This document shows, piece after piece, positions 23,836 through 43,870 of a stretch of DNA of 64,000 nucleotides. The position numbers and the translations under genes were made by a program. A model generated the notes under the pieces. That model was not told the DNA's origin and did not search any database. It saw nothing but the letters and a program-made list of their open reading frames with translations. Position 1 is the first letter of the stretch. Each line of letters begins with the position of its first letter. This DNA comes from Tunturibacter psychrotolerans (GTDB taxonomy: Bacteria; Acidobacteriota; Terriglobia; Terriglobales; Acidobacteriaceae). The stretch spans positions 1,426,001 to 1,490,000 of the forward strand of contig NZ_CP132942.1 in assembly GCF_040359615.1 (NCBI RefSeq). Reading direction: 5' to 3'.

Positions 23836-26800
23836 CTAGAAGTAGACCTTGGCCGCGAGCTGGATCACGCGCGGTCCACCGGGTCCTGCGGGGTTATAGG
23901 CAGCTGTGGGCTGCCCCCAGTTCGTGTCCTTCGCGATAGAAAGCGGCGTAAAGGTGCCATCTCCGTTGTAGGTGGGGAGCGTGACGTTTGCGTTGTAGTC
24001 ACGCGTTGAGAAGTTGGGGTGGTTGAGAACGTTGAAGAACTCGCCGCGCAGCTGGATGTAGCGGCCCTTGACGGCCTCTCCGAGAGGAAAGTTTTTGAAG
24101 ATAGACGAGTCCCAGGTAACCATGCTTCCCTGACGCAGACTGCCTGGCGCGCCGAGGTTCGGCTGACCGATGGTAGGCAGAATCAGGTTGCCCAGGTGAT
24201 CGACACCAACGAAGAGAGGTGGAGTCTTGCTGTACTGCGATCCCCCGGTCACCTGGTTGGCCGGCACAAAGAGAGCGTTCCTTACAGGCGTACCACTCAT
24301 TATGTTGGCCAGGCCAGAGAGCTGATAGTTGTCGGTTAGATAGCCCAGCCAGCGTGGACCGTTGAAGTGACGGGTCAGGTTAGGTAGATCGTAAACATAA
24401 TTGATGGCGCCGATGCTCGGTCGATCGTAGTTGGCAACGCCGTAGCTGTACTTGCGTGGATTGAACGGATCGACGAAGCTTTCATCCGCGCTTGAGGTGG
24501 TGAGTGTCTTCGACCAGGTGTAGACGCCGCCAAAGGTCAATCCGCGGGCGAAGCGGCGCTGTACTGAAACCTGCAGAGCGTTGTAGTTCGAGGTCCCATC
24601 GAACTTGTAGTACTCCATCTGGCCATAGCCCTTGAATGGCGACAGGAAGTTCTGTGTGTAGGCGTAGCGGCCGCTGAAGCTATCGCCAGCCGCAGCATAT
24701 TCCGGAGGAAGGTTGGGCTCGACGGCGGGAACAACGCCGCCCGGGAATTGGCTGGGATCCTGTGCCGCGCGTGTGAAGGTCGTGCCATAGGGAATGGTAT
24801 TGAGATCGCGAGCGGTTACGAGGTGACGGCCTTGTGTGCCGACATAAGCGACGTCGAGCGTGACGTCGTGTGCAATCTCGCGTTGGATCCCGAGTGAGTA
24901 GCTGTAGACGGTGGGAACCTGGCCGTTGATATCAGCGCCGTAGATTCCGCTCAACACACCCGAATTGGCCTGGGCTGCAGTCGGGATCTGCGGAACAGAG
25001 CTGTTGAAGATGGTTGGGGTCTGGACGAGAGCTGGGTTGCCGAAGACAGTGTTGAAGATCAAGTTGCCCTGCTCCCGGTCGTGGGAGATGCCGAAGCCCC
25101 CGCGAAGCACGCCCTTGCCATCTCCGAAGATGTCGTAGGACGCGCCCAGACGCGGCTCGAACATGATGCCGCGGCCATTCCATCCGCCTTGAGGCAAAGT
25201 CCCGTTGGCGGCATAGGTCATGCCGTCGAGACGGTCGCCGGAGTTGGGGATGATGTTGCCACTCGTGTCGATCGAGACGGCGGTGGCGGGATTGTAGGCC
25301 GATGGCGTAAAGAGTGCGATCTGATTTTTAGCATCGTATTGCGGAGGAATGTAGACGAAACGCATGCCGTAGTCGAGGGTGAGCCGGTTCGAGACCTGCC
25401 AGGTATCCTGCGCATAGAACTCCACCTGGTTGTAGCGGAAGAACCCAGTGGGGCGTGCGCTTGACTGGTCGAAGTTTTGGAAGGAACCAACCAACGCGCT
25501 GGCAAAGGGCGATCCGCTGTTGGAGGCGCTGGAGCTAAGGCAGCCCAACTCGCTCGTTGAGCAGTTACTGAAGCTGAACTGACCGTTCGAGTTGCCGTAG
25601 CTGATCTGATCTTTGCGGCTGCGCTGATAGAAGGCGCCGAACTTCATTGTGTGAGCGTGCAGGCTCCACGTTAGGTTGTCGTTGGCGGAGATCGTCGTCG
25701 TCGCCTGGTGCCAGGGGGTCGCGCCGAGGTAGGTCGAAGGATAGTTCTGGCCGTTGCCGCTGAAGTTGAAATCCGGAATCGACGTATTGTTCGAGACTGG
25801 GTAAAGCAGCGGCAGGTTGATATCGTTGGCGCCGACGGAGATGTTGCCATTCACTCCTTCGACGTCAGAGCGGTAGACGCTCGGCCCGACGGTGACTTCG
25901 TTGAGCAGCGTCGGCGTGAGTGTGGAGGTAAGGTCCACCGAAAGGTTCCAGCCAGGTTGCTTGTCGGTGCAACCGCCGACGAACTGCAGCGAACCGCTGC
26001 ACTCGAGTCCGAACGAGCCGAGCGGTCCGGTCTGCATGTCCTGATTATTGATATAGCGGGCAAAGATGCGCTCCGATGGAGTGATCTGATAGTCCACGCG
26101 ACCAATGTATTCCGTGCGGGGATGAGTGGAAGAGAGAGGGTCTTGCCGGTTGTAGGTGTTGTTCCCGGATACATTCGGCGTGGGGTAAAGATTGAGAATC
26201 TTTTGAATTTGATTGAACGACGCCTGTTGGGCCCCCGAGAGCTGGGCTGCGGTGATCTTGTTGCCGGCAAACTGCGTGCCGGTTGCCGGATTAAAGATCT
26301 GGATTGGGTTGCCGCTACTGTCGACGCTTTGGGAGAAGTCGCCCTGGCGCTCGAGCGACGTAGGGGTACGGTACTGGTCGAGGCTACCAGGGACGAGCTG
26401 CCGGTAAAACTCGTTCGAGAAGAAGAAAAAGAGCTTGTTTTTGAGGATCGGTCCACCGATCTGGTAGCCAACAGTGTTGTAGCGGTAGAGCGGCTTTGAG
26501 GTGCCGTTGTGGTCGCTCACCCAGTCATTTGCGTTCAGACCCTCGTTGCGGTGGAAGAAGTGGACATTTCCGTGAAAGTCGTTGGTGCCGCCGCGTGAGG
26601 TGACGACAAAGGAACCGCCGCCGGCCTTACCGAACTCGGCCTGGTAGTTCGAGGTCAGGACCTTAACTTCGGCGATCGCGTCAGTATTAATGGTGACCTG
26701 GGTCCCACCGTTGTCGCCCGTATCTACGTTGGAGGCGCCATCCAAGGTGAAATCGTGCTGATTTTGTCTTGTTCCGTTCACGCTGTACGAGGTGAGGCCG

Positions 26801-27429
26801 CCGGTCCCTGAAGCTCCGAAGGTGCCCACACCCGAGACGCCGGGTACTACACGGATGATGTCCAGCACGTTCCGGCCGTTCAACGCGATGTCATTGAGCT
26901 GTTTGCCGGTAATGAGGTCTGACCTCTCTCCCGAATTGGCCTGAATCTGGAGCTGACCTGTGTCCGCTGTAACTGTCACGCTGGTCGCTTCAGCCCCCAC
27001 CTTCAGGACGAAGGCGCCGGCATTGAGATTGTCAGCGGAGCTGAGAATGATGCCATCTTTCTCGAGCGATTCAAAGCCGCCGGCCGTGACGGTGATGTGA
27101 TAGGTCGCAGCAGGCAGGTTGGAAAGCGAGAAGGTGCCGTTGCCGCTTGAGGTTACGCTGCGCGAGATACCCAGATTGGAGGCCGTGGCCGTGACTTTAG
27201 CCCCGGGAACGACGGCGCCGGTCGAATCCTGAACAGAGCCCAGAATGGTGCCGGAGGTGACCTGGGCTGAACTCGGGAGTGCCCAGGCGAGGACCATCAT
27301 AATGGCCGCAAACAGAAATTTGGTTAGGTGGCGGACGATATTACCTTCGACCTGTCCGGCCCGGACGCTCGCTACCGCGCCCTTTCCGAATCTATTATGA
27401 GAGAGGGACGTCTTATTAGACTGATGCAC
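23836..27429 (-). CDS. TonB-dependent receptor with N-terminal carboxypeptidase-regulatory-like domain
   Basis: A 1197-residue outer-membrane receptor of the acidobacterial type. After a membrane-targeting segment (LTKFLFAAIMMVLAWALPSSAQ) comes a carboxypeptidase-regulatory-like beta-sandwich (GTILGSVQDSTGAVVPGAKV...). The plug follows, with KQLNDIALNGRNVLDIIRVV and YSVNGTRQNQHDFTLDGAS, then a long beta-barrel ending in an aromatic residue (IQLAAKVYF). It lacks an obvious SusD partner. The start chosen is GTG 27429, preceded by AAAGGAA at 6 nt; the frame opens at 27453. Divergent from the membrane-anchored regulator at 27574, and upstream of the GH30 gene, so it probably imports glycan fragments. 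Confidence 0.88.
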   Translation of the reverse strand: MHQSNKTSLSHNRFGKGAVASVRAGQVEGNIVRHLTKFLFAAIMMVLAWALPSSAQVTSGTILGSVQDSTGAVVPGAKVTATASNLGISRSVTSSGNGTFSLSNLPAATYHITVTAGGFESLEKDGIILSSADNLNAGAFVLKVGAEATSVTVTADTGQLQIQANSGERSDLITGKQLNDIALNGRNVLDIIRVVPGVSGVGTFGASGTGGLTSYSVNGTRQNQHDFTLDGASNVDTGDNGGTQVTINTDAIAEVKVLTSNYQAEFGKAGGGSFVVTSRGGTNDFHGNVHFFHRNEGLNANDWVSDHNGTSKPLYRYNTVGYQIGGPILKNKLFFFFSNEFYRQLVPGSLDQYRTPTSLERQGDFSQSVDSSGNPIQIFNPATGTQFAGNKITAAQLSGAQQASFNQIQKILNLYPTPNVSGNNTYNRQDPLSSTHPRTEYIGRVDYQITPSERIFARYINNQDMQTGPLGSFGLECSGSLQFVGGCTDKQPGWNLSVDLTSTLTPTLLNEVTVGPSVYRSDVEGVNGNISVGANDINLPLLYPVSNNTSIPDFNFSGNGQNYPSTYLGATPWHQATTTISANDNLTWSLHAHTMKFGAFYQRSRKDQISYGNSNGQFSFSNCSTSELGCLSSSASNSGSPFASALVGSFQNFDQSSARPTGFFRYNQVEFYAQDTWQVSNRLTLDYGMRFVYIPPQYDAKNQIALFTPSAYNPATAVSIDTSGNIIPNSGDRLDGMTYAANGTLPQGGWNGRGIMFEPRLGASYDIFGDGKGVLRGGFGISHDREQGNLIFNTVFGNPALVQTPTIFNSSVPQIPTAAQANSGVLSGIYGADINGQVPTVYSYSLGIQREIAHDVTLDVAYVGTQGRHLVTARDLNTIPYGTTFTRAAQDPSQFPGGVVPAVEPNLPPEYAAAGDSFSGRYAYTQNFLSPFKGYGQMEYYKFDGTSNYNALQVSVQRRFARGLTFGGVYTWSKTLTTSSADESFVDPFNPRKYSYGVANYDRPSIGAINYVYDLPNLTRHFNGPRWLGYLTDNYQLSGLANIMSGTPVRNALFVPANQVTGGSQYSKTPPLFVGVDHLGNLILPTIGQPNLGAPGSLRQGSMVTWDSSIFKNFPLGEAVKGRYIQLRGEFFNVLNHPNFSTRDYNANVTLPTYNGDGTFTPLSIAKDTNWGQPTAAYNPAGPGGPRVIQLAAKVYF

Positions 27430-27573
27430 TTTGGCTTCCTTTAGGGACAACAATGAACGTCCCGAACCCTACGCAGCCAATTGCGCGATGATCCTGAAGA
27501 CAAGCTGAGGCTTCTCTGAGGATTTCCCGATGGTAGCTAAGTTTCTTATTATGAATAAAATGGAGCATTCGAA

Positions 27574-29772
27574 TTGTTTGTAACAGACCGCAGGGGTGCC
27601 TTTTGCGTCGGGGAATGGAAGGTTCAACCGGAGCTGAATTCGATGATGAGGGACGGCGTCGAACGCCACCTCGAGCCAAAGGTAATGAAAGTCCTGCTGG
27701 TGCTAGCCTCCAAGCAAGGTCATGTGGTCTCGAAAGAGGAGCTCATCTCGTCGGTGTGGTCCGATACCTTCGTCGGCGACGACGTGCTGACACGGTGCAT
27801 CTCTATCCTGCGTCGTATCACCGAGGACGACCCCCATACTCCGCGTTTCATCCAAACCATACCCAAAGCTGGGTACAGGCTGGTAGCCGAGGTTAACGAG
27901 CTTCCAGACGAAGAGACTTTGGATCTCCATAGGGTGACCGCAGCATCTGCGGCGACATTTGAGCCAGCAAGTACTCTGGAATCGCCAAATGCTCAGACGC
28001 CTCCCAAACGACCTGCTCGCCCTGAAAGGATGATTGCGGCCGGGCTCACAGTCGCCTTCCTGTTGGCTGTTATCGCCGTCATTTGGTCCTACCAAAATGC
28101 TCGGACGCGAGTGGCAAGGGGCAACGCTTCCTTCAAGACGATTCAGTTCACCTCCTACGCCGGAGAGCAGACGCAGCCTGCGTTTGCTCCCGATGGAAAG
28201 CGCATCGCTTTTGTGTGGATCGCCGAAGACTCCCAGTCGCGCCGCATCTATATCAAGACCATTGGAAGCGAAGACGTAAGGCCGCTTACTCCTGGCACCG
28301 AAGACCAGCAGTTTAGCCCGGCATGGTCTCCAGACGGCAGACAGATTGCCTACCTCGCCATCGCGAAGGACGGTGTCAGCCTGTACATCGCGGACGTGGG
28401 GTCGAGCGTGCCTCCACGCAGACTTTTGATCCCGCAGGAGCCTAGCCACTGGGAGCAGGGTGCGCTCTCCTGGTCACCGTCGGGCAAGTCCCTCATCTAT
28501 CCCGATCACTCCGGCATTCAGCCGAATTCTTCGATCTTTTTGCTCGATCTGGCAACGTTGCACACACGGTCGATCACCGATCCGCCCGCAGGGTGGGAGG
28601 GCGATCTGAATCCGGCTTACTCGCCCGATGGCCGCTGGATCGCCTTCGCCCGCGCCAGCGAGACAGCCGTCCGAGACATCTACTTTATGTCGACCACCGA
28701 TGGCACGGTGCAACAGCTTACACGCGATCGCATGAACATTGACAGTCTCGCCTGGACCTCGGACAGTGCATCGATCATCTTCTCGTCAAATCGCGGTGGA
28801 AAGTACGCTCTATGGAAGATTGGCCTCGAAGATAAAGTGCCGCAGCGGCTCCCCGTTGGAACCGAAGATGCCTACCAACCAGCCGTTGGGCCCAGACCCG
28901 GACAACTTGCCTATAGTCAGGGTTCGGCGATCTGGAGCATCGTGCGGCTGCGAGAGAACACCTCGAGGAATAATTCCTCAAGCGCCGAAGCTGTACTTAC
29001 ATCGACCCAGCAGGACTCCGCGCCTGCCCTCTCTCCCAGCGGCCAGTCTTTCGCCTTTCAATCGCGACGCTCCGGCAACCAGGAGATATGGATAGCGTCC
29101 GCGCAAGGAGACAAACTGCGCCAGCTCACCTTCATGGCAGGACCGCTCACTGGGAGTCCTTCGTGGTCCAATCATCAGGACAGAATCCTCTTCGACTCAC
29201 GGCCAGATGGCCACTCCCACATCTTTTGCGTTTCGGCAGCGGGTGGACGTCCGAAGCAGCTTACTTTTGGAAATGTGAACGATATAACACCGCGTTGGTC
29301 GCGTGACGACCAGACGATTTACTTCCGCTCGAACCGAGGCGATCGGTGGCAGCTTTGGAGAATCTCTGCCGCGGGCGGAGAGCCGCAGCCAGTAACTACG
29401 GGCGACGGAATCGTCCCACAGGAGTCGCTGGACGGCAGATGGCTTTACTACACCCGCGGAGATGAGGATGGACTGTGGCGCGTTCCTCCCAAGGGAGGTG
29501 CCGAGACACAGGTTCTGTCGCAGCCCGCAGCAGGATATTGGGGATACTGGCAGGTCACATCCCGCGGCATCTTCTATCTCGATCGCGAAGCGGCATCCAG
29601 TACTATCCGTATCTTCGATCCCGAGACGCGACGCTCCACCCTCTTCGCAACGCTGAAAGATCCACCCCCGATGTACTCCGGCATCACCGTCACCCAGGAT
29701 GGCCTGGTCGGTTTAATGACGTACCAGGGAGACGCAGGCAGACATATAACGTTCGTTGAAGCTCAGCCCTAA
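27574..29772 (+). CDS. Membrane-anchored winged-helix regulator with TolB/PD40 propeller
   Basis: The 732-residue protein has three parts. Residues about 8-105 form an OmpR/CadC-type winged-helix DNA-binding domain (LEPKVMKVLLVLASKQGHVV, SVWSDTFVGDDVLTRCISIL, FIQTIPKAGYRLVAEV). A single membrane helix lies at about 152-173 (MIAAGLTVAFLLAVIAVIW). The rest, on the outer side of the membrane, is a series of PD40/TolB-like repeats (FSPAWSPDGRQIAYL, YSPDGRWIAFARAS, WSRDDQTIYFRSNRG). The layout suggests a one-component sensor whose propeller reads a periplasmic signal. The start is a TTG with GGAG at 8 nt. It is divergent from the TonB receptor at 23836-27429, the likely target. Confidence 0.85.
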   Translation: MFVTDRRGAFCVGEWKVQPELNSMMRDGVERHLEPKVMKVLLVLASKQGHVVSKEELISSVWSDTFVGDDVLTRCISILRRITEDDPHTPRFIQTIPKAGYRLVAEVNELPDEETLDLHRVTAASAATFEPASTLESPNAQTPPKRPARPERMIAAGLTVAFLLAVIAVIWSYQNARTRVARGNASFKTIQFTSYAGEQTQPAFAPDGKRIAFVWIAEDSQSRRIYIKTIGSEDVRPLTPGTEDQQFSPAWSPDGRQIAYLAIAKDGVSLYIADVGSSVPPRRLLIPQEPSHWEQGALSWSPSGKSLIYPDHSGIQPNSSIFLLDLATLHTRSITDPPAGWEGDLNPAYSPDGRWIAFARASETAVRDIYFMSTTDGTVQQLTRDRMNIDSLAWTSDSASIIFSSNRGGKYALWKIGLEDKVPQRLPVGTEDAYQPAVGPRPGQLAYSQGSAIWSIVRLRENTSRNNSSSAEAVLTSTQQDSAPALSPSGQSFAFQSRRSGNQEIWIASAQGDKLRQLTFMAGPLTGSPSWSNHQDRILFDSRPDGHSHIFCVSAAGGRPKQLTFGNVNDITPRWSRDDQTIYFRSNRGDRWQLWRISAAGGEPQPVTTGDGIVPQESLDGRWLYYTRGDEDGLWRVPPKGGAETQVLSQPAAGYWGYWQVTSRGIFYLDREAASSTIRIFDPETRRSTLFATLKDPPPMYSGITVTQDGLVGLMTYQGDAGRHITFVEAQP

Positions 29773-31969: not shown

Positions 31970-32229
31970 CTCTTGCTCCTTAGGTACCGCTTCAGCGCTG
32001 CCGCTCGCCACAAATGGTCAACCTCGACGAGACTGCTTGCGCAGAAGCCCGATGTTTTGCCGTGTCTAAAAATATACTGCCACGCCGTTGGCGCAAAAAT
32101 AGTCCCGGAGAAGCGGGCCATGTTTGTCCCCGACGGCTCACGCTGATGTTGAGTTATGGCGCACACCCTCGGCTGTTGGGAGCGATCACGATTGGGGAAG
32201 ACCGTTAGTCGAGTTTTCGCGGGCACTGC

Positions 32230-33684
32230 CTATGGATAGAACCGAGTCGCAATGATCTGTGCTCCGGGGGCGGTCGCACCGATGCTGCTAGTCTCCACCA
32301 GTAGCTCGAACGATTTCACGGAACGATCTGGCCGAACTACCTGCTTCAGGATCGGCTTCATCTCCTCAGAGCTGAACAGGGTGTCTGCTGCGGCCTGCGT
32401 CGCAGCCATATTCAGTCCCTGAATGATAAGCACATGACCGGTTCCATCGAGGCTAGGCAAGTAATCGATTACGCCATACGTACGATTCGCTGTTCCTGTG
32501 CCGTTCACATACCTCTTTTGCTCTGCACCGACCGGATGTTCGTTCAGTACAAACGACCGGTCCACCTCAGGCATATATTCGAGCTTGAAGTTAAGGTTTT
32601 TTTCAAAGAGTGATACCCAGGGATTCGTATGCGTGGAACCCAGCAGTATCGCGTTGGAGCTCTTCAGGTCTTCCGTTGTGATGCTCCGCGCATAACGAAC
32701 CTCTGACTGGCTCTCCGCAGATTCAGGAAGCCGCGCCAGCATCGCAGTAATATTCAGATCGACGACGCTGGTATAGCGCTGACGGCGCAGGTCGTTCAGG
32801 TTTTCGAGTCCAAGCCCAGGCGACGATTTCACATCAGAAAGATAGGTCCCGTTCGCATACTCCTCCAGTGTGACCAGTTGCCCCGTAAGATTTTGCAGAA
32901 TACCCAGACCACTATCGGCAGGAACAATCAGGGTAGTTCGGTTTCGCTGGAACAGTTGCTTCCACACCAGATGCGCCGGTTCCTGCATCCCCTTTTCCTG
33001 CAGCATCCGCGTTCCTATCCATCCCGCCGATGCCAATAAGACTCCCGCGAGCAGTCCAGCGAAAACCGACAGCCACGCTGGTTGCCAACGAGTCCCGGAA
33101 GTTATTTGCCGAACCTCTGCAGCAGCCTCTGGCTCACCCCTCGCCTTGCCAAAATGACCCCCCAACTCAGTCTTTCCCACGCCGCTGTGGCGGGAAATCT
33201 TCGAGAACGGCTCCTGCACATCGGCCCTGCGTACAAAGACAGGGACGTACCCACCTCGCGGGATATTGATTCGCAACGGCTCCTCGAGCCCCTCCCCTTC
33301 AAAGTATTTATCGAGACGCTTTCTCAATAAGCGCGCGTAACTCCGTACGATATTGTCTTCGCCTGGATTGTAATCGGTCGTGCGATTGAAGATCTGCGTG
33401 CCGATTCGCTGCTCCGTAATCTCATGCGTATTTCCCAAAAGCTGCTGCTCGCAGACGTACAGCAGAAATTTCTGGAGCAACTCCGATTTGCAGAAGCCTT
33501 TGCTGGCAACGATTCGAAGCGCCAGTTGCCATTCCTGCCGCAGTAAAAGATCTTCGCGTCCAATGCCTGGCGGTTCTTCGACCAGCACATCCCCGCGCGA
33601 CATGTCAGAGCCAGCAACCCGGCGTTGCCCTAAACGAAACTCGTCCGGTCTCTCTCCATTGGACCGTTCACGGTAGTTCGGCAT
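32230..33684 (-). CDS. Membrane-anchored winged-helix regulator next to TonB receptor
   Basis: A protein of about 484 residues with a winged-helix-like N-terminus: LLQKFLLYVCEQQLLGNTHE, EDNIVRSYARLLRKRLDKYF and INIPRGGYVPVF mimic the recognition helix and wing of OmpR-type domains. A single membrane helix (WLSVFAGLLAGVLLASAGW, about 201-222) follows, then a ~270-residue outer domain of unknown fold. Its N-terminus and layout match the protein at 42560-43870. The start is uncertain: ATG 33684 (MPNYRERSNG) was taken, but the frame opens with a TTG at 33744. It is divergent from the receptor at 33956, with about 270 nt between. Confidence 0.7.
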   Translation of the reverse strand: MPNYRERSNGERPDEFRLGQRRVAGSDMSRGDVLVEEPPGIGREDLLLRQEWQLALRIVASKGFCKSELLQKFLLYVCEQQLLGNTHEITEQRIGTQIFNRTTDYNPGEDNIVRSYARLLRKRLDKYFEGEGLEEPLRINIPRGGYVPVFVRRADVQEPFSKISRHSGVGKTELGGHFGKARGEPEAAAEVRQITSGTRWQPAWLSVFAGLLAGVLLASAGWIGTRMLQEKGMQEPAHLVWKQLFQRNRTTLIVPADSGLGILQNLTGQLVTLEEYANGTYLSDVKSSPGLGLENLNDLRRQRYTSVVDLNITAMLARLPESAESQSEVRYARSITTEDLKSSNAILLGSTHTNPWVSLFEKNLNFKLEYMPEVDRSFVLNEHPVGAEQKRYVNGTGTANRTYGVIDYLPSLDGTGHVLIIQGLNMAATQAAADTLFSSEEMKPILKQVVRPDRSVKSFELLVETSSIGATAPGAQIIATRFYP

Positions 33685-33955
33685 GTCCCAAGCATAGCGG
33701 TGATATATGAAATTCCAATGAACGCCCGTCCCGCAATACGTCAAATCCCTTTGAAATACAGAGGGGTGAGGCAGTGTGAACTCACGGGGTACGCCTCAAT
33801 GCCGTGACGAACACCCTTTCGCGAACCTCACAACCTCGCCATGATCAAACCTATTGGCCCTCATCTATGTGGCTTGCATCCGGCAGCGGCAACCTGCGCC
33901 AGCAACCCATAGTCACTCTCAACTCAACGTCGGACGAAAGCACTTGGAGCGAATT

Positions 33956-36900
33956 GTGAAACGTCTTTTTTTAGCACTGATGGTTTTTCTTCTGGTCCTG
34001 AATTGTTGCCCGTTATCCGCGCAGTTTGAAACTGCGTCCGTCCTGGGTTACGTCCATGATGCCTCCGGCGCGGCTCTATCTAACGCAACGGTCTCCCTCA
34101 TAAACCAGGAGACGAAGTCTGTCGTCACGTCAAAAACCAATTCTCAAGGCGCCTACGAGTTCACCGACGTAAAGATCGGTGAATATCAAGTCAATGCCCA
34201 GGCCGACGGGTTCGACACCACCACCACGCAAAACTTCACCGTCACAGTCAACGCAAGGCAACGCGTCGACGTTTCCCTGAAGATTGGCTCTGCCAGCGAA
34301 ACTGTCACCGTCACCGGAGCCGCCGACCTCCTCGAGACTGACTCCAGCGAACGTGGCCAGGTCATTGGCACTCGCGAAGTCGAAAACCTCCCCCTCAACG
34401 GTCGCGCCTACGCCGATCTCGCTGCCCTCGTCCCCGGTGTCCGCCGCAACATCCTCGAGAACACCACCACCAGCAGCCGCGACGCCACCTTCAACATCAA
34501 TGGCCAGCGCAGCGAATTCAACAACTTCCTCCTCGACGGCGTCGACAACAACTCCTACGGAACCTCCAATCAGGGCTTCTCCAACCAGGCAATCCCGCCC
34601 TCGCCCGACGCCATCAACGAGTTCCGTGTCGAAACCGACAACTACTCCGCCGAATACGGCCGCTCCGCCGGCGGCGTCATCAACGTCAGCATCCGCAGCG
34701 GTAGCAACCAGTTTCACGGCAAGGCCTGGGACTATCTCCGCAACACAGTCCTCAATGCCGTCGGGCCCTTCACTCCACCGACCAACCCCCTCACTGGCAA
34801 ACCCACCAAGCCCGTTCTCATCCGCAACCAGTTCGGTGGCACCTTCGGTGGTCCCATCTGGAAAGACCACACCTTCTTCTTCGCTGACTACGAAGGCGTC
34901 CGTCAGATCACTCACTCGCCCCTCACCGCCACCGTTCCGTCCTTGGATCAGAACGGCACCAGCGCACTCGCCAGAGCCAACGGCGGCTACACTTTCCTCA
35001 CCACGAACTCCGCCGGTGTCGAAAGCTCTAAACCCGTCCCCCTCGTCAATCCGCTGAATGGCAAAGTCTACGCCAACGGCGTCATCCCCTTCGGCGACGC
35101 CACGCCTTTCGCCCAGGGTGTCCTCGCAGCCCTTCCAACACCTACCGCAGCCGCTCTCTCCAACAACTACGCGTCGCTCCCCGCCGGCACCGTTCGCGAC
35201 GACAAGGGAGACATACGCGTCGATCAAACTTTCAACGCCCGCACCACTGCCTTCGTCCGCTACAGCGAACATCAGGGCACCATTCAAGACGCCCCCACCA
35301 TTCAGGGACCCGCCGGTGGAAGTAGCAGCAACGGCGTCGTCGTCATCTATAACCAGCAAATCGCCGGAGGAGTCACCCACACCTTCAGCCAGAACTCCAT
35401 CCTCGACGCACGCTTCGCCTTCACCCGTACCGATGGCGGAAAGAGCCCCTACGGCGCCGGCATGCCCAGCCTCATGGCCGGAATCACAGGTCTTCCCACA
35501 GACCCTCAAGTCGTCCGCAGCCTCAACGACCAGAGCGTAAACGGCTACACCCAGTTCGGCAGCCAGAACAGCAATCCCCAGTTTCAGAATCCCTGGCTTC
35601 TCAACCCCAAGATCAACTACACCTTGCTGCACGGTAGAAATAGCTACAAGTTCGGTTACGAATACCAGGCCATCTTCACCGCCATCAGCGACTTCAACCC
35701 TAACTTCGGCCTTAACACCTACAACGGCGGTTTCAGCTACTCCGGCACCAGCACCACGACTCTCAACACTTCCGACACCGGCACCAAAGAAGCTGTCGCC
35801 CTCGCTGACTTCCTCCTCGGTGCAGACGATTCCTACCAGCTCAACAACTTCGCCGTCATTCACCTCAACCAGCGCATGCACTTCCTCTACTTCCAGGACG
35901 ACATCCGTGTAAACTCCCGACTCACCATCAACGCCGGCTTGCGGTACGAGCTCGTCACGCCGCAGTGGGAATCAAACAACCACCTCGCCAACTTCGACCC
36001 CACCACCAACTCGCTCATCCAGGCCTCGTCCGGCTCCATCTATAACCGCGCCCTGGTCAATATGCCCAAACTCGACTTTGCTCCACGCTTTGGTCTTGCC
36101 TTCCAGGCCGATCCTAAAACTGTTATCCGCGCCGGCTACGGTCTCGGCTTTGCACAGTTCAACCGCGAAGGTGGTGAGAACATGCTCGGCTATAACGGCC
36201 CCTTCATCGTCAACACCAACCGTGTGCAGGTCGCGCCCTTCGCTCCCTCCGCCGCAACAGCAAGCAAGCAGCCTGTCTGCACAACCGGCGATCAGCCTTT
36301 CTCGACCTGCTTCCGCACCACGCAGCAGGGCTTCCCCACAAACTTCGCCACTCCGGCCAACTACAACACCCTCCTGGCCGAAGTCCGTTATCTGCCGAAG
36401 GACCTACCCACCGGCTACGTCCAGAGCTACCACCTCACCGTCCAACGTCAGCTCAGCAACAACATGACCTTCGAGGTCTCTTACGTCGGTGAACACGGCG
36501 TCAAGCTTCAAGTTCTGGGCGACTACAATCAGGCAGCACCTAACGCCGTCACCGCCAACTGCAACGCCAGCGGTCTCGCTGGCAGCACCTCCAGCTGTCT
36601 CCCCCTGCAGGCCCGCCGCCCCGTGCACAACTTCACTGGCATCGAGGAAACCCTCCCCGATGGCTTCCTTGCCTACAACGCTCTTCAGACCAAGTTCGAG
36701 CACCGCACCAGCCACGGCCTCTACATCCTCAACTCCTTCACCTGGTCGCGCGCTCAGGACAATGCGTCCGGTCACCTCGATACACCCGCCGGCGATAACT
36801 CCCGCATCAACCTCGCGAACCCACTCGGCGACCGCAGCGTCTCCGCTTACAACCAGCCACTCAACGAAATCCTCACCGTCGTCTACGATCTTCCTTACGG

Positions 36901-37432
36901 TAAAGGCCGCATGTTTGGCGGCTCCGCTCCCTCCCTCATGCAGGAGGGTCTTGGCGGATGGCAGCTCACTGCCATCAACTCAGCCAGCAGCGGAATCCCC
37001 GTCAATCTCACCTACAGCGAGAACTCCTTCCAGGACGTAAGCGACATCCTCACCTATCGTCCCAACCTCACCGGCGTTCCCGTCGTCCTGCCCAAATCGA
37101 AACGTGTGAAGAACGCCTCCAATACAGCCCTGCTGGCTTTCAACCCCGCGTCCGTTAGCATCCCCGGTCCCAACACGCCTTACGGCAACGCCGGCCGCAA
37201 CTCGGTGCGATTCGATCCCCTCTATAACCTCGACCTTGGCGTCCACAAGGTCTTCCCGCTCTATCTCGAAGGCACCGCGCTCGACTTCCGTACCGAGGCC
37301 TTCAACATTCTCAACAAGGTCAACTACGCCTACCCACAGAGCACCGCGGGGCAATCCACCTTCGGCGCGGTCACGGCAGCAACCACCGCTCCGCCTCGTG
37401 TCCTTCAGTTCGCACTCAAACTGATCTTCTAA
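33956..37432 (+). CDS. TonB-dependent receptor with carboxypeptidase-regulatory-like domain
   Basis: A 1158-residue receptor. Signal peptide KRLFLALMVFLLVLNCCPLS, then a carboxypeptidase-regulatory-like domain (ASVLGYVHDASGAALSNATV, GAYEFTDVKIGEYQVNAQA). The plug has TREVENLPLNGRAYADLAAL and FNINGQRSEFNNFLLDGVDN. The barrel ends in VLQFALKLIF with a terminal aromatic residue. Start GTG 33956 has GGAG at 6 nt; the frame opens at 33854. Codons end strikingly often in C compared with the neighbouring receptors, which creates a long spurious frame on the other strand. The metallophosphoesterase gene follows after 23 nt, probably in the same transcript. Confidence 0.88.
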   Translation: MKRLFLALMVFLLVLNCCPLSAQFETASVLGYVHDASGAALSNATVSLINQETKSVVTSKTNSQGAYEFTDVKIGEYQVNAQADGFDTTTTQNFTVTVNARQRVDVSLKIGSASETVTVTGAADLLETDSSERGQVIGTREVENLPLNGRAYADLAALVPGVRRNILENTTTSSRDATFNINGQRSEFNNFLLDGVDNNSYGTSNQGFSNQAIPPSPDAINEFRVETDNYSAEYGRSAGGVINVSIRSGSNQFHGKAWDYLRNTVLNAVGPFTPPTNPLTGKPTKPVLIRNQFGGTFGGPIWKDHTFFFADYEGVRQITHSPLTATVPSLDQNGTSALARANGGYTFLTTNSAGVESSKPVPLVNPLNGKVYANGVIPFGDATPFAQGVLAALPTPTAAALSNNYASLPAGTVRDDKGDIRVDQTFNARTTAFVRYSEHQGTIQDAPTIQGPAGGSSSNGVVVIYNQQIAGGVTHTFSQNSILDARFAFTRTDGGKSPYGAGMPSLMAGITGLPTDPQVVRSLNDQSVNGYTQFGSQNSNPQFQNPWLLNPKINYTLLHGRNSYKFGYEYQAIFTAISDFNPNFGLNTYNGGFSYSGTSTTTLNTSDTGTKEAVALADFLLGADDSYQLNNFAVIHLNQRMHFLYFQDDIRVNSRLTINAGLRYELVTPQWESNNHLANFDPTTNSLIQASSGSIYNRALVNMPKLDFAPRFGLAFQADPKTVIRAGYGLGFAQFNREGGENMLGYNGPFIVNTNRVQVAPFAPSAATASKQPVCTTGDQPFSTCFRTTQQGFPTNFATPANYNTLLAEVRYLPKDLPTGYVQSYHLTVQRQLSNNMTFEVSYVGEHGVKLQVLGDYNQAAPNAVTANCNASGLAGSTSSCLPLQARRPVHNFTGIEETLPDGFLAYNALQTKFEHRTSHGLYILNSFTWSRAQDNASGHLDTPAGDNSRINLANPLGDRSVSAYNQPLNEILTVVYDLPYGKGRMFGGSAPSLMQEGLGGWQLTAINSASSGIPVNLTYSENSFQDVSDILTYRPNLTGVPVVLPKSKRVKNASNTALLAFNPASVSIPGPNTPYGNAGRNSVRFDPLYNLDLGVHKVFPLYLEGTALDFRTEAFNILNKVNYAYPQSTAGQSTFGAVTAATTAPPRVLQFALKLIF

Positions 37433-37455
37433 ACTAAACCTGGAGCGTGCTTGAT

Positions 37456-38397
37456 ATGGACCGCAGACAATTCACGACCCTCGGCGCTGCATCGCTCGGC
37501 AACCTGCTCACCCGGAGACTCTGGGCTGAGCAGGTCCGGGCAGCAGCTTCCCCCGACAAGTTCTACTTTGCACTCGTCGCCGACACCCACATCATCGACA
37601 ACTTCTACGTCAAAGGCAGCGAGAACGGCGTCGAAGACAACGAAAGCATCCTCGTCACCACGCCCCGACTCACCTCCGCACGCGACCTCATCAACTCACT
37701 CGATCCCGCAATCGAGCAAGTCTTCCTCATCGGCGACTACTTCCACAACTATCCCTCCACCGACTACGACTTCTACTTCAAAAACACCACTCGCCTCGAC
37801 AACGCCAAGGCCATCACCGACGGATTCAAGATGCCCGTCCACCTCGGCTTCGGCAACCACGACTACGACGTCAGGCACGTCCCCCGCGAGATGAGCCATC
37901 GCCTCTTCAAAGCCAAGTTCAACGCCGAGCCCTACTCCGTCGTGGACTACAAAGGTTACAAATTCATCCACCTCAACAACTTTCTCGGCACCACCCAGGA
38001 CCGCAACTCAGCCGACTTCAACCCGAGCATCGGTTCGCTCGGCGAAGAGCAGCTTCACTGGTTCGAAGCCCAGCTTCAACAACACAAGCCCACCTTCGTC
38101 TTCATTCACTACCCGCTCGTCCAGGACCGCCCCACAGAGTTCGCCGACTACGGCCTGTATCCCCTCCTGAAGAAGTACCAGAGCAACATCCAGCTCGTAA
38201 TATCCGGCCACGTTCACAAGTGGATCGACTACGGCCACACCTTCGGCCCGCAGCACTACACCATGGCCGCCACCCGCTACGATCCCAACGCATACATGCT
38301 CCTCGAGGTGGACACCCGACACGCCACCTCACGCTTCATGAACATCGACCTCGTCCAATGGGACACCCACTACAGCAAACCCTGGCACGCTGTCTGA
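37456..38397 (+). CDS. Tat-exported calcineurin-like metallophosphoesterase
   Basis: A 313-residue protein beginning MDRRQFTTLGAASLGNLLTR, a twin-arginine signal. Metal-binding motifs are in order: ADTH (about 41-44), a GD in FLIGDYFHNY, GNHD (about 132-135), IHYPL and GHVHKW. The family comprises phosphomonoesterases and phosphodiesterases with two metals. ATG 37456 lies 10 nt after GGAG; a GTG at 37447 sits too close to it. It is directly downstream of the TonB receptor with the same C-rich codon use, so the two probably act together, perhaps to dephosphorylate an imported ligand. Confidence 0.88.
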   Translation: MDRRQFTTLGAASLGNLLTRRLWAEQVRAAASPDKFYFALVADTHIIDNFYVKGSENGVEDNESILVTTPRLTSARDLINSLDPAIEQVFLIGDYFHNYPSTDYDFYFKNTTRLDNAKAITDGFKMPVHLGFGNHDYDVRHVPREMSHRLFKAKFNAEPYSVVDYKGYKFIHLNNFLGTTQDRNSADFNPSIGSLGEEQLHWFEAQLQQHKPTFVFIHYPLVQDRPTEFADYGLYPLLKKYQSNIQLVISGHVHKWIDYGHTFGPQHYTMAATRYDPNAYMLLEVDTRHATSRFMNIDLVQWDTHYSKPWHAV

Positions 38398-38665: not shown

Positions 38666-38854
38666 TCAAAACCCCCAGTAAAAACACTCATCCACCACCA
38701 GCAAAAAAAACGTCATCCCATCCGCAAATTCTGACGGAATCATGTCGTCGTTTTCCAACGAAGCACCGGCGATCTGCTCATTGTCATTAATGCCGAGCGC
38801 GACACTATAGATGTCGGTCCCAACTACGCGCCAGATATTGAAAGCACGTAGGCA
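38666..38854 (-). pseudogene. Fragment resembling HAF/extracellular-repeat protein C-terminus
   Basis: On the reverse strand a short open stretch reads DIYSVALGINDNEQIAGASL and ends at a TGA (38666-38668). GINDxxQIAG is the signature of probable extracellular repeat (HAF) proteins. No start or full domain is present; it is probably a remnant just downstream of the TonB receptor gene. The opposite strand is also open here, so the call is weak. Confidence 0.3.
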
Positions 38855-38866
38855 CCTTGAAGACCT

Positions 38867-41800
38867 TTAGTATTCGAGTTTCAGAGAAAACTGAATCTGA
38901 CGGGAGTTGCCATTCGTTCGATTGATCTGGCCAAAACCTGACCCGAGGATTGTGTTCGACGGAAGCCCCATATTCACGATGTTGAACATGTTGAAAAACT
39001 CAGCCCTGAACTGCAAGTTGGTGAGTTCAGCTCCGGATTGTCTTCTTCCGATCGGCGTGTCTTTAACCAAAGAAAAGTCATAATCGTAATAGGCTGGCCC
39101 TCGAAAGGTATTCCGTCCAAGAGTGCCAAAGCGCCCACTATTCGGGCCGGTTCCTCCCGGAACGTTAATTGGTATGGAAAAAAAAGAAGCATTATCGCTT
39201 CCACGTCCGAAATAGTCCTCTCTCTTGGGCCTTGCAGTGGATAGCAATGGCTTTGCGATCTGATCGGGCCTGTCCGCATTGGCCGACCCTGCACCCGTTT
39301 GCTGAATTCCCGTATAAACGGTAAAAGGCGTGCCGCCAGACAGAGATGAAATACTGATCAACTGCCAGCCGCGGGTAAGTTTACTGCTCACGTGATTCAA
39401 TGGGTGGATCGCATAAACCGGAAGAGACTGCGTGAGACTCAGTGAGAATGAATTCCTTGTGTCGAACACTGACGGACCGCGTTCGGGGTGAGTATCGAAA
39501 GGATTCTGAGGCGCTGCCTGCGCTATTGCTCCCACGGTGCTGGTGGCTGAGGTCCCGCCAACACTGCTGGTATCGTCGATCGACTTCGACCAAGTGTAGT
39601 TCGCTTGGAAGGCAGGTCCCCCATGCGGAGCTTGACCCTGCCCGGAGACCTGTAGAGCGTTGTACGAGGAGTGCGAAGTCGCAGTCATCTCGCCTTCGGT
39701 TCCGAACCCGCCTACAGCCTGCCCGGCGGAATTGAAGTTCGTATATGGTGCAAATTGCGCTGTCGCGCCAGGATAGGCGTTGGGAAATGCTACGCGGGGA
39801 AGCCTATAAGCGGTTGTGCCGACATAAGCGGCAGAGAGCGTCAGTTGTCCTATGGACTGCTCCAGTCCAAGGGACCACGTACCGAGGCCAGCGTTGCCAA
39901 AGTTCCTATTGATAGCCCCTACGTTCAGTGGAGTCGTTTCTCCTTCGGACGCATCTGCAATTCCTTGCTCCAGACGAGCGATATCAACTTCCGTGTTGGC
40001 GGGGACATCGTTGGGCCGTCGGTTGGCAAAGATGTCTGTACCATCAGGGGTATAGACGCGGGGTAACTGCGCTGGAGTGAATTGAAATCCGTACGGGACG
40101 AGAGCTGTGGGACCAGCTGTCACACGAGGGTAGAACACGAACGGCAGATTGCCCGTTATCATGTTGTCTTGCCAGATATTGGGGGGAATCGTGGTCAAAG
40201 CCGCGCCGGCATGGAGTATCAGGGTCGGATTCAAGCGATAGTCGGCTTGCAGACGCGGAGCCCAATTGTTCATTCGCGTACGGTACCTGGGTTCAGGATT
40301 AATCAAGAAAACCTGGCCTCCGCCAGGAGCTGGGTAAAATCCGGAAGTACGGTGAGCCCGATCCGTTATCGGCGTGTAGAGCTCGAAGCGCAGTCCATAG
40401 CCGATCGTGAGGCGGCTTGTAGCTTTCCAGGTATCTTGCGCGTAGGCTGCGATTGCCGTCCGGTTTACCGCAGTGGCGCCTATATTTTGCCCATTCGAGA
40501 AATAGCTAGGTGCAACAGCTCTTGTATACGCAAACGCGCTTCCGGTAAGAAACGCTGACAGGGTATCAGGCAGAGGATCTCCAATATTGATAGTGTGAGA
40601 ACCGCTTGCCGATGTGATTTTCACTCCAGAGTATGCTGTTCCTCCGCCAAAGTCATATTCTCCATTTGGGCTCGATCCGAAATAGCCGGAGTCGCGGTTC
40701 AGTCGAATCTCCGCACCGAGGTTGACCATATGGGCGTTGCGCGAGAAGGTTACATTCTCTCGAGCCTGGAATAAGTTTCCGTAGTCTCTCGAAACGGAAC
40801 CGCCTGGGGCATTGAACGGCTCGAAGAGAGCGTCGTTGAATTTGACGGCTGGGTCGGTTGTATTGGAAGTTGGGAAAGAGGGTGTCGTTCGAGTAGCACT
40901 CAGCGATGATTCAAACATGAGACTCGGCGATGCAGCGTGTGTCCATGTCAACACTCCATTACGCTGGTGATCGACATATTCCACACCGAAGCTCGGATCT
41001 ATAACCGTTTGATCTGGATTCGTTGTTGGGCCGCTGAGATTGTCGAGAGAGAATCGCGCCATCCAGTGGTCCTTGACGCTGCTCTGAAAATCGAGCCTGC
41101 CTGAAAACTGATCTGCGTCCGTATTTACTTTGGATGAAGTTGCGTAAGTGTTCGCGCCAAATGTTCCGGCTGGATAATTAGGCAGCGGATATCGCGCCAG
41201 TATCTGGCTGATCGAGGAGTTGACCGGAACAAGGAGCGTGTCTCCTGGGAATGCTGTCGTATCCATGCCCGATCGCTGTTCTGCGGTTGGAACAGAAAGA
41301 ACCTGGGTCGTTCCCAGGACTTGGCGGAAGCCTTGGTACTCGATGAAGTAGAAGAACTGCTTTCCGTTACCGGACCAACGAGAAATCGGAACAGGACCTC
41401 CATTTGTAAATCCAAACTCATTTCTTCTGAAAGGTGGAATGCGTCCAGGGCTTACCGGAGAAGGATGATCGAAGTAGTTGCGGGCGTCGAGCGCGGAGTT
41501 TCGCAGAAACTCGAAAAACGATCCGTGCAGGTCGCTTGTTCCGGATCTGGTCTGGATGTCTGTATAGCCAGATGCGCCACGACCTATTTCAGCCGGCATG
41601 ACGCCGGACGACGATTTGAGGTCAAGGATTGCGTCTACGTTGAAATTAGTGAATGTGCCGCCACCCATTTCGGGGTCACTGATGTCCGCCCCATCCAGCG
41701 AGAAAGTTGCCTCCACGCCTCGCTGACCGTTGATCGCGAACTGCTGGGTGAAGTTTGAGGCTCCGTTGGTGTCACTAGACGTTCCAGCGGCCAGTAGCAG

Positions 41801-42277
41801 AATTTGGCTAAAGTCCCTTTTGTTGAGCGGGATTTCACTCACTCCCTTGTTCGTGAGTTGATCGGTGTCAACTACTCTTCCAATCTCCGTACTGGCCATC
41901 TCCACCGAGCCATCGCGGCTCAGCTTGAGCGTTACGTCCACAGCCGCTGATGGGATAGAGACTTGGGTCGCGGTGCGGTAGACGTTACCAGCAACACGAA
42001 CAGTCACTGAGTAGAGGCCGGCATTGAGGTTCTGGAACGAAAAAGCCCCTTCTGTATTCACGGCTGCGAAGTAGTGATTTGTGCCCGAATCGAGTAGCAC
42101 CGTTCCCTCGTTTGCGGGCAGGAACCCGTCCGTGCGAAGCACACCGTTCCAGCTTGAGGTCGGCGCCTGCGCCCAAACGACAGACGAGGGAGTGTTATCA
42201 AAAGGAAAAAGCATGCTTAAAACGACATAAAGCAAAAGAAGATTGCAGATTCTGGATGAGTTGCTATTGGCTGACAT
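38867..42277 (-). CDS. TonB-dependent receptor-like protein with carboxypeptidase-regulatory-like domain
   Basis: A receptor of about 1136 residues. The signal segment (CNLLLLYVVLSMLFPF) is followed by a beta-sandwich domain (GVLRTDGFLPANEGTVLL, GAFSFQNLNAGLYSVTVRVA). The plug carries GVSEIPLNKRDFSQILLLAA and FAINGQRGVEATFSLDGADI. The barrel ends FSLKLEY with the usual terminal aromatic residue. The start is uncertain: ATG 42277 (MSANSNSSRI) fits the signal peptide, but the frame opens with a GTG at 42328. It is divergent from the regulator at 42560, 282 nt away, and precedes the GH3 cluster in the window, so a glycan ligand is likely. Confidence 0.85.
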   Translation of the reverse strand: MSANSNSSRICNLLLLYVVLSMLFPFDNTPSSVVWAQAPTSSWNGVLRTDGFLPANEGTVLLDSGTNHYFAAVNTEGAFSFQNLNAGLYSVTVRVAGNVYRTATQVSIPSAAVDVTLKLSRDGSVEMASTEIGRVVDTDQLTNKGVSEIPLNKRDFSQILLLAAGTSSDTNGASNFTQQFAINGQRGVEATFSLDGADISDPEMGGGTFTNFNVDAILDLKSSSGVMPAEIGRGASGYTDIQTRSGTSDLHGSFFEFLRNSALDARNYFDHPSPVSPGRIPPFRRNEFGFTNGGPVPISRWSGNGKQFFYFIEYQGFRQVLGTTQVLSVPTAEQRSGMDTTAFPGDTLLVPVNSSISQILARYPLPNYPAGTFGANTYATSSKVNTDADQFSGRLDFQSSVKDHWMARFSLDNLSGPTTNPDQTVIDPSFGVEYVDHQRNGVLTWTHAASPSLMFESSLSATRTTPSFPTSNTTDPAVKFNDALFEPFNAPGGSVSRDYGNLFQARENVTFSRNAHMVNLGAEIRLNRDSGYFGSSPNGEYDFGGGTAYSGVKITSASGSHTINIGDPLPDTLSAFLTGSAFAYTRAVAPSYFSNGQNIGATAVNRTAIAAYAQDTWKATSRLTIGYGLRFELYTPITDRAHRTSGFYPAPGGGQVFLINPEPRYRTRMNNWAPRLQADYRLNPTLILHAGAALTTIPPNIWQDNMITGNLPFVFYPRVTAGPTALVPYGFQFTPAQLPRVYTPDGTDIFANRRPNDVPANTEVDIARLEQGIADASEGETTPLNVGAINRNFGNAGLGTWSLGLEQSIGQLTLSAAYVGTTAYRLPRVAFPNAYPGATAQFAPYTNFNSAGQAVGGFGTEGEMTATSHSSYNALQVSGQGQAPHGGPAFQANYTWSKSIDDTSSVGGTSATSTVGAIAQAAPQNPFDTHPERGPSVFDTRNSFSLSLTQSLPVYAIHPLNHVSSKLTRGWQLISISSLSGGTPFTVYTGIQQTGAGSANADRPDQIAKPLLSTARPKREDYFGRGSDNASFFSIPINVPGGTGPNSGRFGTLGRNTFRGPAYYDYDFSLVKDTPIGRRQSGAELTNLQFRAEFFNMFNIVNMGLPSNTILGSGFGQINRTNGNSRQIQFSLKLEY

Positions 42278-42559
42278 GGGGACTACCGTGACCACTTTCG
42301 TTCCGTGCGGAATCAGAAAGGATGACACTATCCGTTAGGGGAGACCGTCATAAGAGCCATCGGGTCCGAACCAATCTCTAGTTCGATAAAGACATCCATT
42401 TGAGAGACTTACGGTTGGTAACCGACTGATCAAAAAGGAATGTATGATACCCCGGAATCTAGTTGTCAATATGGAATAATGGGGGGTTGACGTTGGTCCC
42501 CGGCTCTATGCCGTCGTCGAAGGTTCTCCGTCCCTGCTTCTGCGCGGCAACGCGTCGAG

Positions 42560-43870
42560 GTGGACGCAGCGGCGGACGTAAAACCGGGAAAAGTAGGAAG
42601 AGAATCAGCAGAACTCACGATGCCATTGTTGCCACAATCCGAAAAAGAGGCTGGACACAGTCTCGCGTTAGATGCCAGTACTATCCGAGATCAGCTGAAG
42701 CGGCTCCTTGCACATCCGTTATTCGCGAACAGTAAGCGCTATCCCGTGTTTCTGGCCTACACGGTCGAGCAAACGCTGCTTGGCAATGCGGGCGAATTAA
42801 AGGAACGGACGATAGGTGTGGAGGCTTTTGGACGTGAACCAAACTACGATGTGAACCTTGATCCTGTAGTCCGTACGACTGCGGCCGAAGTCCGGAAGAG
42901 GTTGATCCAGTACTACTACAACACGGATCATTTCGGAGAGCTGATAGTCGAACTCTCGGTAGGCTCATATGTTCCCTCGTTCCGGGATCCAACGGTTCCC
43001 GTGAACCTCGAATCAGCGTCGCTGGTCTCTCAGAGGAACGGGGTGACTTCTCAGGATTCCCCCACAGCCGAGTTAAAATCTGCCGAGGCAGCCCCGCCTC
43101 CAACAGTGCTGACCACGCATCGATGGATATCTATCGCAACATTATTGTTGTTGGCCCTTTTCGCAGGATTCGGAATGGGCCGTATCCAAATCCCCCGGAA
43201 ACCGTCGAATTTGGAACGATTTTGGGAACCGGTGACAGCGGCTTCGGGCAAGGTCACGTACTGCCTTGGGCAACCGATAGATGCGGTAGATCGAGAGCGC
43301 ACCACGCCGAACGGGATGCCCCTCTATGGCCGTCTCGATGTCTCGGACGTGATCACGTTGGCGCGATCCATTGTTCCTCTTGTCCCAAAGGGCGGCGATT
43401 TTCGCGTTGTTTCCGATTCAGAAATCGGCTACACGCAGCTACGCGAAGGCCCCGTCGTGCTCATTGGCGCCTTCGACAACGTTTGGACCATGCGGATTAC
43501 ACAGGATCTACCCTTCGGATTCGAGTACGATTCGCAGGTGCGAAGGCTCGTAGACCGCAAGAGTCCCGAGAAGAGGTTTTGGACCCTCCAGTGGCAGGTG
43601 CCTTACACAAAGTTGGCAAAGGACTATGCCATCATCGCCAGGATTCATGACAGCGTAACGGGCCAACCAGTCATTATCATTGCGGGGATTCTAGGGGAAG
43701 GCACCGAAGCTGCCAGCGAGGTCGTCTTTAAGCCTGCGTATCTGGATGAGATGTTAAAGAAGGCGCCTAAGAACTGGGACCAACTCAACCTGGAAGCGGT
43801 GATCGAAACAAATGTCATCGAAGGCCACGCTGGCCCTCCCACCGTCCTCGCTGTCGAGACCTGGCGGTAG
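42560..43870 (+). CDS. Membrane-anchored winged-helix regulator next to TonB receptor
   Basis: Up to 436 residues. The N-terminal ~120 residues (YPVFLAYTVEQTLLGNAGEL, DPVVRTTAAEVRKRLIQYYY, VELSVGSYVPSF) align by eye with the winged-helix region of the regulator at 32230-33684. A membrane helix (WISIATLLLLALFAGFGMG, about 187-207) is followed by a ~225-residue outer domain (FWEPVTAASGKVTYCLGQP, VLIGAFDNVWTMRIT, KDYAIIARIHDSVTG) that I do not recognise. The start is unsure: the frame opens with GTG 42560 and ATG 42620 is an alternative; neither has a clear Shine-Dalgarno. It is divergent from the receptor at 38867-42277. Confidence 0.7.
   Translation: MDAAADVKPGKVGRESAELTMPLLPQSEKEAGHSLALDASTIRDQLKRLLAHPLFANSKRYPVFLAYTVEQTLLGNAGELKERTIGVEAFGREPNYDVNLDPVVRTTAAEVRKRLIQYYYNTDHFGELIVELSVGSYVPSFRDPTVPVNLESASLVSQRNGVTSQDSPTAELKSAEAAPPPTVLTTHRWISIATLLLLALFAGFGMGRIQIPRKPSNLERFWEPVTAASGKVTYCLGQPIDAVDRERTTPNGMPLYGRLDVSDVITLARSIVPLVPKGGDFRVVSDSEIGYTQLREGPVVLIGAFDNVWTMRITQDLPFGFEYDSQVRRLVDRKSPEKRFWTLQWQVPYTKLAKDYAIIARIHDSVTGQPVIIIAGILGEGTEAASEVVFKPAYLDEMLKKAPKNWDQLNLEAVIETNVIEGHAGPPTVLAVETWR

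Follow-up and report, generated by a model that had tools for sequence, protein, structure and literature searches.

Three TonB-dependent receptor genes of Tunturibacter psychrotolerans paired head to head with genes for putative membrane-spanning regulators

Gene pairs and regulator architecture

Within 64,000 nucleotides of the 5.6-Mb genome of the acidobacterium Tunturibacter psychrotolerans (contig 1, NZ_CP132942.1, positions 1426001-1490000; this whole stretch is called the window here), three genes for TonB-dependent receptors (TBDRs) each stand head to head with the gene of a putative membrane-spanning DNA-binding regulator. The three pairs, pointed out in an initial annotation, are borne out by open frames and Pfam domains at 23836-29772, 32230-37432 and 38867-43870. 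Open frames called by script served as genes and three sequences as the basis of the TBDR model, which makes gap lengths approximate throughout. In window positions, the paired genes are:

23836..27453, minus strand: TBDR 1, with CarboxypepD_reg, Plug and OMP_b-brl_4 barrel domains; longest open frame, the actual start probably lying further in
27574..29772, plus strand: regulator 1, with a Trans_reg_C winged helix, a single membrane helix and a PD40 propeller; CadC type
32230..33744, minus strand: regulator 2, with a new N-domain (33232-33540), a membrane helix (about 33016-33072) and an outer domain of class 0 (see below); the ATG at 33684 is the likelier start
33854..37432, plus strand: TBDR 2; the GTG at 33956 is the likely start
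38867..42328, minus strand: TBDR 3; likely start 42277
42560..43870, plus strand: regulator 3, with a new N-domain (42671-42988), a membrane helix (about 43124-43180) and an outer domain of class 0

All three receptors carry the OMP_b-brl_4 barrel (PF25183; 485-697 bits against a cut-off of 30). CarboxypepD_reg exceeds its cut-off in TBDR 1 and TBDR 2; in TBDR 3 it falls below, and an EMC7-like domain lies just above its own.

Regulator 1 contains Trans_reg_C at residues 31-103 (60.2 bits, cut-off 26.2), a hydrophobic stretch read by eye and, behind it, PD40 repeats found with Pfam. Hydropathy gives regulators 2 and 3 one hydrophobic helix each, C-terminal to the N-domain, and the proposal of a single membrane helix per regulator thus holds. 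A family-library scan revealed no kinase domain in any of the three. Neither the N-domain nor the outer domain of regulators 2 and 3 matched a model in Pfam or NCBIfam; regulator 3 and nine relatives, scanned singly, gave no Pfam match below E 0.041, and a profile built from these sequences hit no PDB chain with the threshold relaxed to E 10. When a profile of the N-domain (170 sequences) was compared with the genome's own Trans_reg_C domains, the two aligned over 71 columns with a probability of 74.6 and an E-value of 2.7e-5 for a single comparison. This is good but not conclusive evidence that the N-domain of regulators 2 and 3 is a divergent OmpR-type winged helix. The winged helix claimed for all three is found directly in regulator 1, and for regulators 2 and 3 it is tentatively assigned by profile comparison.

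The outer domains had been described as a PD40 propeller in regulator 1 and two different folds in the others. The propeller is present, and the notion of two unrelated folds was abandoned, as regulators 2 and 3 both fall within one single-linkage BLAST family of 61 proteins in which they are linked via intermediates. This family emerged from a survey of regulators sharing the new N-domain, in which 135 of 136 matches from other genomes were entered (one fragment of a listed match was omitted), five near contig starts were dropped, and 80 of the 125 regions drawn up were fetched, corresponding to four of seven shuffled batches. The members in these 80 stretches, together with those of the window and of other loci of this genome, amounted to 89 regulators. 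Their outer parts form the class of 61 that includes regulators 2 and 3 (class 0), a TPR class of 12, a class of eight, two classes of two and four singletons. Malectin, a carbohydrate-binding fold, was found in both tested members of the class of eight, and PD40 propellers in both members of one two-member class. A single kind of N-domain is thus combined with various outer domains; PD40, in turn, occurs with both kinds of N-domain.

Two cases deserve mention in their own right. In the TPR class (e.g., L026:8614-10524; loci are designated by L numbers) the N-domain is fused to TPR repeats and several proteins lack a clear membrane helix; this class may be an older cytoplasmic form of the family. 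At 3397838-3399388 of the T. psychrotolerans genome (L028), the outer domain of a family member consists of two Malectin stretches, and a TBDR gene lies convergent to it with one called gene between them.

Of 60 sampled Acidobacteriaceae genomes, 41 encode the N-domain. A phylum-wide survey with alignment A3 (regulator 3 and 72 relatives) gave at least 16 of 197 genomes at E 1e-45, a lower bound because at most nine candidates were scored per genome. The closest named relatives of regulator 3 belong to Granulicella and Edaphobacter.

Association of the regulators with receptor genes

The initial annotation called for a survey of regulator/TBDR divergence across genomes, and this revealed an enrichment. 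Among class-0 regulators, 38 of 61 are divergent to a TBDR gene no more than 600 bp away (this genome accounting for three of them), compared with 7 of the 672 other genes, 150 aa or longer, from the 80 fetched stretches. Seven further class-0 members have one gene in between on the TBDR strand, four have the TBDR next downstream, two lie at a contig edge and ten do not fit the pattern. Applying the same 600-bp limit, a divergent TBDR was found for none of the 12 TPR-class members and two members of the class of eight. With about 50 TBDR genes in this genome, three accidental pairings in a background rich in both TBDRs and winged-helix proteins might be invoked; given the ratio of 38/61 to 7/672 and the conservation of the pairs in other species, chance is an extremely improbable explanation.

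Other samples gave comparable pictures. In the 80 named loci nearest regulator 3, the TBDR was divergent within 600 bp in 22, within 4.5 kb in six and next downstream in three; 11 loci were cut by contig ends and 38 showed other arrangements. A genus sample of regulator-2 relatives yielded 19 of 29 with a divergent TBDR no further than 700 bp away (counting both from the window; one of the 29 lacked a regulator frame). The divergence recurred at 15 of 19 loci from new genomes, these 19 being what remained of 26 new loci once those from previously sampled genomes were omitted. Across gaps of 121-148 bp, a divergent TBDR accompanies regulator 1 and each of its three orthologues (59-72% identity); for four more distant PD40 proteins retrieved by the regulator-1 search, no divergent TBDR was seen. 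Moreover, distances among regulators and among their TBDRs are correlated over 59 pairs (Mantel r 0.50; 0 of 2000 permutations as high).

Because a partner of this kind occurs at only 5 of the genome's 51 TBDRs (48 examined plus the window's three), these regulators do not represent a general TBDR switch. The five are those of the window, one at 1697 kb and one accompanied by a Trans_reg_C/PD40 protein at 1303 kb. A Pfam tally covering 18 of the 22 other divergent partners in the genome found, among the 25 of 58 families listed, none in more than two of the 18 proteins. Two DUF4118 matches among the partners suggest two-component systems instead for some receptors of this genome. Elsewhere in the genome (4402612-4404841, L037), another TBDR is preceded by a 484-aa gene and a Trans_reg_C protein of 248 aa.

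Directly behind paired TBDRs, 36 genes were inspected; among the 25 of 78 families listed for them no single enzyme family dominates, up to seven of the 36 match TPR families and others belong to various glycosidase families. The TPR proteins might stand in for SusD.

One such gene lies in the window:

37447..38397, plus strand: metallophosphoesterase, directly 3' of TBDR 2; probable operon partner

Both regulator-2-type pairs of the genome have a small hydrolase immediately 3' of the TBDR, the one at the 1697-kb copy (L027:15203-16342) being PI-phospholipase-like by eye. These hydrolases hint at a phosphoester cargo. The TBDRs of the two pairs are each other's closest relatives in the set (51% identity). 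On the other side, an M13 peptidase gene (29897-32011) adjoins regulator 2 downstream on the same strand.

Operator-like elements in the shared gaps

A search of the three gaps for shared operator repeats had been proposed. No common operator emerged: four patterns were tried and none was common, gap 3 alone matching any. What was found is an operator-like conserved element particular to each gap, listed here with the second copy of the pair-3 element and the GH3 gene behind it:

42442..42450: element of pair 3, GTATGATAC, in the TBDR 3/regulator 3 gap
43954..43962: second copy of GTATGATAC, in the regulator 3/GH3 gap
43963..46383, plus strand: GH3 glucosidase, predicted further target of regulator 3; actual start probably further in
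27494..27533: element of pair 1, an 11-bp unit repeated four times in tandem (CTGAAG / CTGAGG / CTGAGG / CCGATGG)
33753..33780, read on the minus (regulator) strand: element of pair 2, tandem TCACACT / TCACCCCTCT

GTAT-N-ATAC ranks first among the upstream dyads of regulator-3 orthologues, with 21 of 31 carrying it; shuffled sequences reached 5-7 at most. An exhaustive count of GTATnATAC around regulator 3 is our strongest single result. The 35 orthologue loci (445,812 bp) contain 49 sites, 28 of them within 350 bp upstream of the regulator and 19 directly behind it; the remaining two lie just within the called start of L216. In all, 34 of the 35 loci have the site near the regulator. Wherever a GH3 gene follows next downstream, it is preceded by a site (12/12), and 5 of the 18 loci lacking GH3 but with at least 1500 bases in view also carry one behind the regulator. 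GH3 identity was checked with Pfam in the window and in five of the 12 loci, and all 12 genes resemble the window's GH3. Control gaps contained no GTATnATAC (0/132).

For comparisons beyond this clade we used a set of 60 gaps, comprising 40 from the fetched stretches and the window (two of them from the malectin class) and 20 of 22 named gaps, L186 and L187 being omitted as near copies of L185. Protein set A5 comprised 21 of the 22 entries of its source list. Counting the window, 5 of these 60 gaps contain GTATnATAC, as do 6 of 45 other named loci. The fuller pattern YGTATSATAC is found at three distinct places in the genome, two of which adjoin regulator 3; searching with the reversed pattern as control produced more rows (10 versus 4). 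The third site lies at 13469-13478.

The elements of pairs 1 and 2 are weaker than that of pair 3. The pair-1 repeats are clear in two other species (L294 and L295), and the lag-11 score summed over four species is 50, compared with at most 39 at other lags between 7 and 20; a fraction of 0.0001 of random control quadruples reached this sum. The exact three-repeat core occurs once in the genome, and with up to two mismatches it gives 31 genome rows against 25 for the reversed control. An 11-bp direct repeat was discarded as a general signal: lag 11 ranked top (21 of 77 gaps) but was also found in 33 of 132 controls. The pair-2 element is a tandem CACCCC repeat, mostly of 10 bp, spotted by eye in the alignment. 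Its degenerate form is present in the window and all six orthologues (55-90% identity), in none of 12 distant relatives and in 1 of 132 control gaps.

Expectation maximisation (EM) additionally brought up a class-wide motif, tggCAAGg-n-taCgGTa, which in-sample reaches score 9 in 31 of the 60 gaps, 30 of them on the regulator strand, and in 1/104 and 0/28 control gaps. CAAG-N7-CGGT occurs on the regulator strand of 14 of the 60 gaps and never on the other strand (0 and 1 of 132 in controls). Its relaxed form CAAG-N7-C[GC]GT occurs in 19 of the 60, in none of 18 regulator-2-like gaps of the genus and in 1 of 15 from other genera. Since the hold-out results were mixed, this motif is used as support only.

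Several observations weigh against reading the elements as operators and the regulators as switches of the adjacent receptors. The correlation between regulators and TBDRs is weak once pairs above 60% identity are removed (Pearson 0.31, Spearman 0.07). For pair 1, L296 has a lag-11 score of 9 where controls average 9.3, and 6 of 115 control gaps attain the 13 scored by the window itself. The pair-2 element was noticed on visual inspection of the very alignment from which its pattern was drawn up; in an unbiased dyad count over 18 regulator-2 relatives the best dyad reached 7 against a shuffle maximum of 5-6, and this element was not listed. TT[TC]AC-N6-TT[TC]AC, a candidate general operator of regulator-2-like pairs present in 9 of 18 gaps of the genus set, dropped to 1 of 15 in new genera and was rejected. 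At threshold 7, the CAAG motif trained on 20 named gaps was recovered in 8 of 37 held-out gaps and in 7 of 132 controls; an unrelated A-rich motif came out when the other gap set was used for training, and the CAAG core was found in 6 of the 40 gaps of that set, where shuffles reached a maximum of 6-7. Because the sequences within each footprint are related, the counts are not independent. Finally, no TBDR is in view beside the 93% identical regulator 3 of Granulicella sp. S190 (L184), and none was seen within 600 bp in L188-L218, several of whose contigs are short.

These last cases bear on a different reading, in which the proteins are primarily regulators of hydrolases and TBDRs, frequent in the same catabolic locus, share the promoter only sometimes. 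In its favour, the element precedes GH3 in every one of the 12 GH3 loci, and in 8 of them a TBDR is in view at varying positions; in L189, L191, L192 and L201 it lies about 3 kb downstream, behind GH3. Reading the divergent neighbours (seven genes from six loci among L204-L218) disclosed GH3 in three loci (L207, L208, L211) and trehalase in two (L215, L217), followed in L215 by an MFS sugar transporter; the neighbour in L206 had no family match. On the other hand, the direct divergent neighbour is a TBDR in most class-0 members (38 of 61), no enzyme family among those listed dominates behind the paired TBDRs, and regulator 1 and its three orthologues all adjoin a TBDR. We consider the hydrolase reading possible but somewhat doubtful. 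For regulator 3 itself, the steadier partner is therefore a glycosidase acting on saccharides that contain glucose, and the TBDR, though common in the locus, has no fixed place there; a glucoside is the predicted ligand. The TBDR is kept in the closely related L185-L187 (92-96% identity). In L184, as judged by eye, homology to the window's gap begins about 40 bp before the element, which has one changed letter (GTGTGATAC), and the site before GH3 is intact. The suggestion that each regulator controls its own receptor is therefore sound as to local control and too narrow as to the target, since many regulator-3 orthologues keep the element beside GH3 or trehalase with no adjacent TBDR.

The conserved elements could alternatively be core promoters or sites of another, global factor, with the membrane proteins regulating only themselves or acting otherwise. 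Certain class motifs indeed start with TTGACA-like letters. However, the elements differ by regulator and track the regulator clade, as the distributions of CAAG-N7-C[GC]GT (19/60 versus 0/18 and 1/15) and of the regulator-2 element (all close orthologues, no distant relative) indicate, and two of the only three YGTATSATAC sites of the genome flank regulator 3. This alternative is unlikely.

A putative one-component uptake switch

Local control of the adjoining genes by the regulators is thus well supported, as far as sequence comparison goes, and we propose that regulators 1-3 are probably one-component switches of ToxR/CadC layout acting on the gap shared with the TBDR, on themselves and on nearby hydrolase genes. 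The proposal builds on the protein architecture, the co-location in multiple genomes, the conserved element in each gap and, for regulator 3, its recurrence before GH3, all of which are read directly from the sequences. Each regulator would consist of a cytoplasmic DNA-binding N-domain, one helix across the inner membrane and a periplasmic sensor domain, a topology predicted from hydropathy. It would remain membrane-bound and bind its own operator in the gap shared with the TBDR gene. The outer domain would meet a small saccharide or phosphoester that has passed the outer membrane, and this contact would alter transcription of the TBDR, of the regulator itself and of nearby hydrolase genes. 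Sensing, ligand and direct binding of the elements are predictions at this stage. CadC and ToxR behave as activators and, by analogy, activation is likelier than repression.

ToxR/CadC-type transmembrane transcriptional regulators (TTRs) likewise combine an N-terminal winged helix, a single membrane helix and an outer sensor in one polypeptide, and regulator 1 fits this type by its domains. Regulators 2 and 3 differ in that their N- and outer domains lack Pfam or NCBIfam matches, and TBDR and hydrolase genes are the targets predicted here; their system is ToxR/CadC-like with new domains. A published TTR census detected DNA-binding domains through Pfam models (PMC10269533) and consequently has probably missed the regulator-2/3 family.

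The system also shares features with characterized uptake loci. Sus loci combine a TBDR, hydrolases and a local sensor-regulator, in some cases a hybrid two-component regulator, and the loci described here likewise bring together these three functions. Unlike them, regulators 1-3 lack a kinase domain and SusD is absent: a PF07980 search gave no match in the whole genome while a control Bacteroides genome matched, extending genome-wide the absence noted in the window. In the FecA/FecR/FecI system, the gene of the outer-membrane TBDR neighbours that of a membrane-spanning regulator, as it does here; in contrast, the present regulators carry the DNA-binding domain themselves and TBDRs 1-3 have no STN signalling domain, whose single match in the genome (1284817) lies in a 434-aa frame. 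PhoB and OmpR boxes have an 11-bp repeat spacing, matched by the tandem repeats of pair 1, whereas the pair-3 element is palindromic and the pair-2 repeat is mostly 10 bp. The description of the arrangement as an alternative to known switches thus applies with respect to the Sus/hybrid two-component and FecIR systems; a one-component protein of ToxR/CadC type is itself a known kind.

A broader picture is nearly as likely as not, and we offer it tentatively: Acidobacteriota may use one-protein uptake switches free of kinase, sigma factor and SusD, whose building blocks would be a winged-helix family and a periplasmic saccharide-binding fold, both as yet undescribed. Outer domains would be exchangeable (class-0 fold, malectin, PD40), each copy would have diverged to an operator of its own, and TBDR or hydrolase genes would be recruited by acquiring that operator. 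In the open literature, judged by titles and the beginnings of abstracts, we found no work on this system or on the choice of polymers for import in Acidobacteria.

Acidobacteria are among the commonest soil bacteria, and they seem to switch sugar-uptake genes by means of single DNA-binding proteins that span the inner membrane. The presence of the N-domain in over two thirds of the sampled Acidobacteriaceae genomes suggests that Pfam-based counts of transmembrane regulators miss this family. If the proposal is true, regulator, operator, receptor and hydrolase could be read together from sequence, which would provide testable substrate predictions for TBDRs of unknown cargo.

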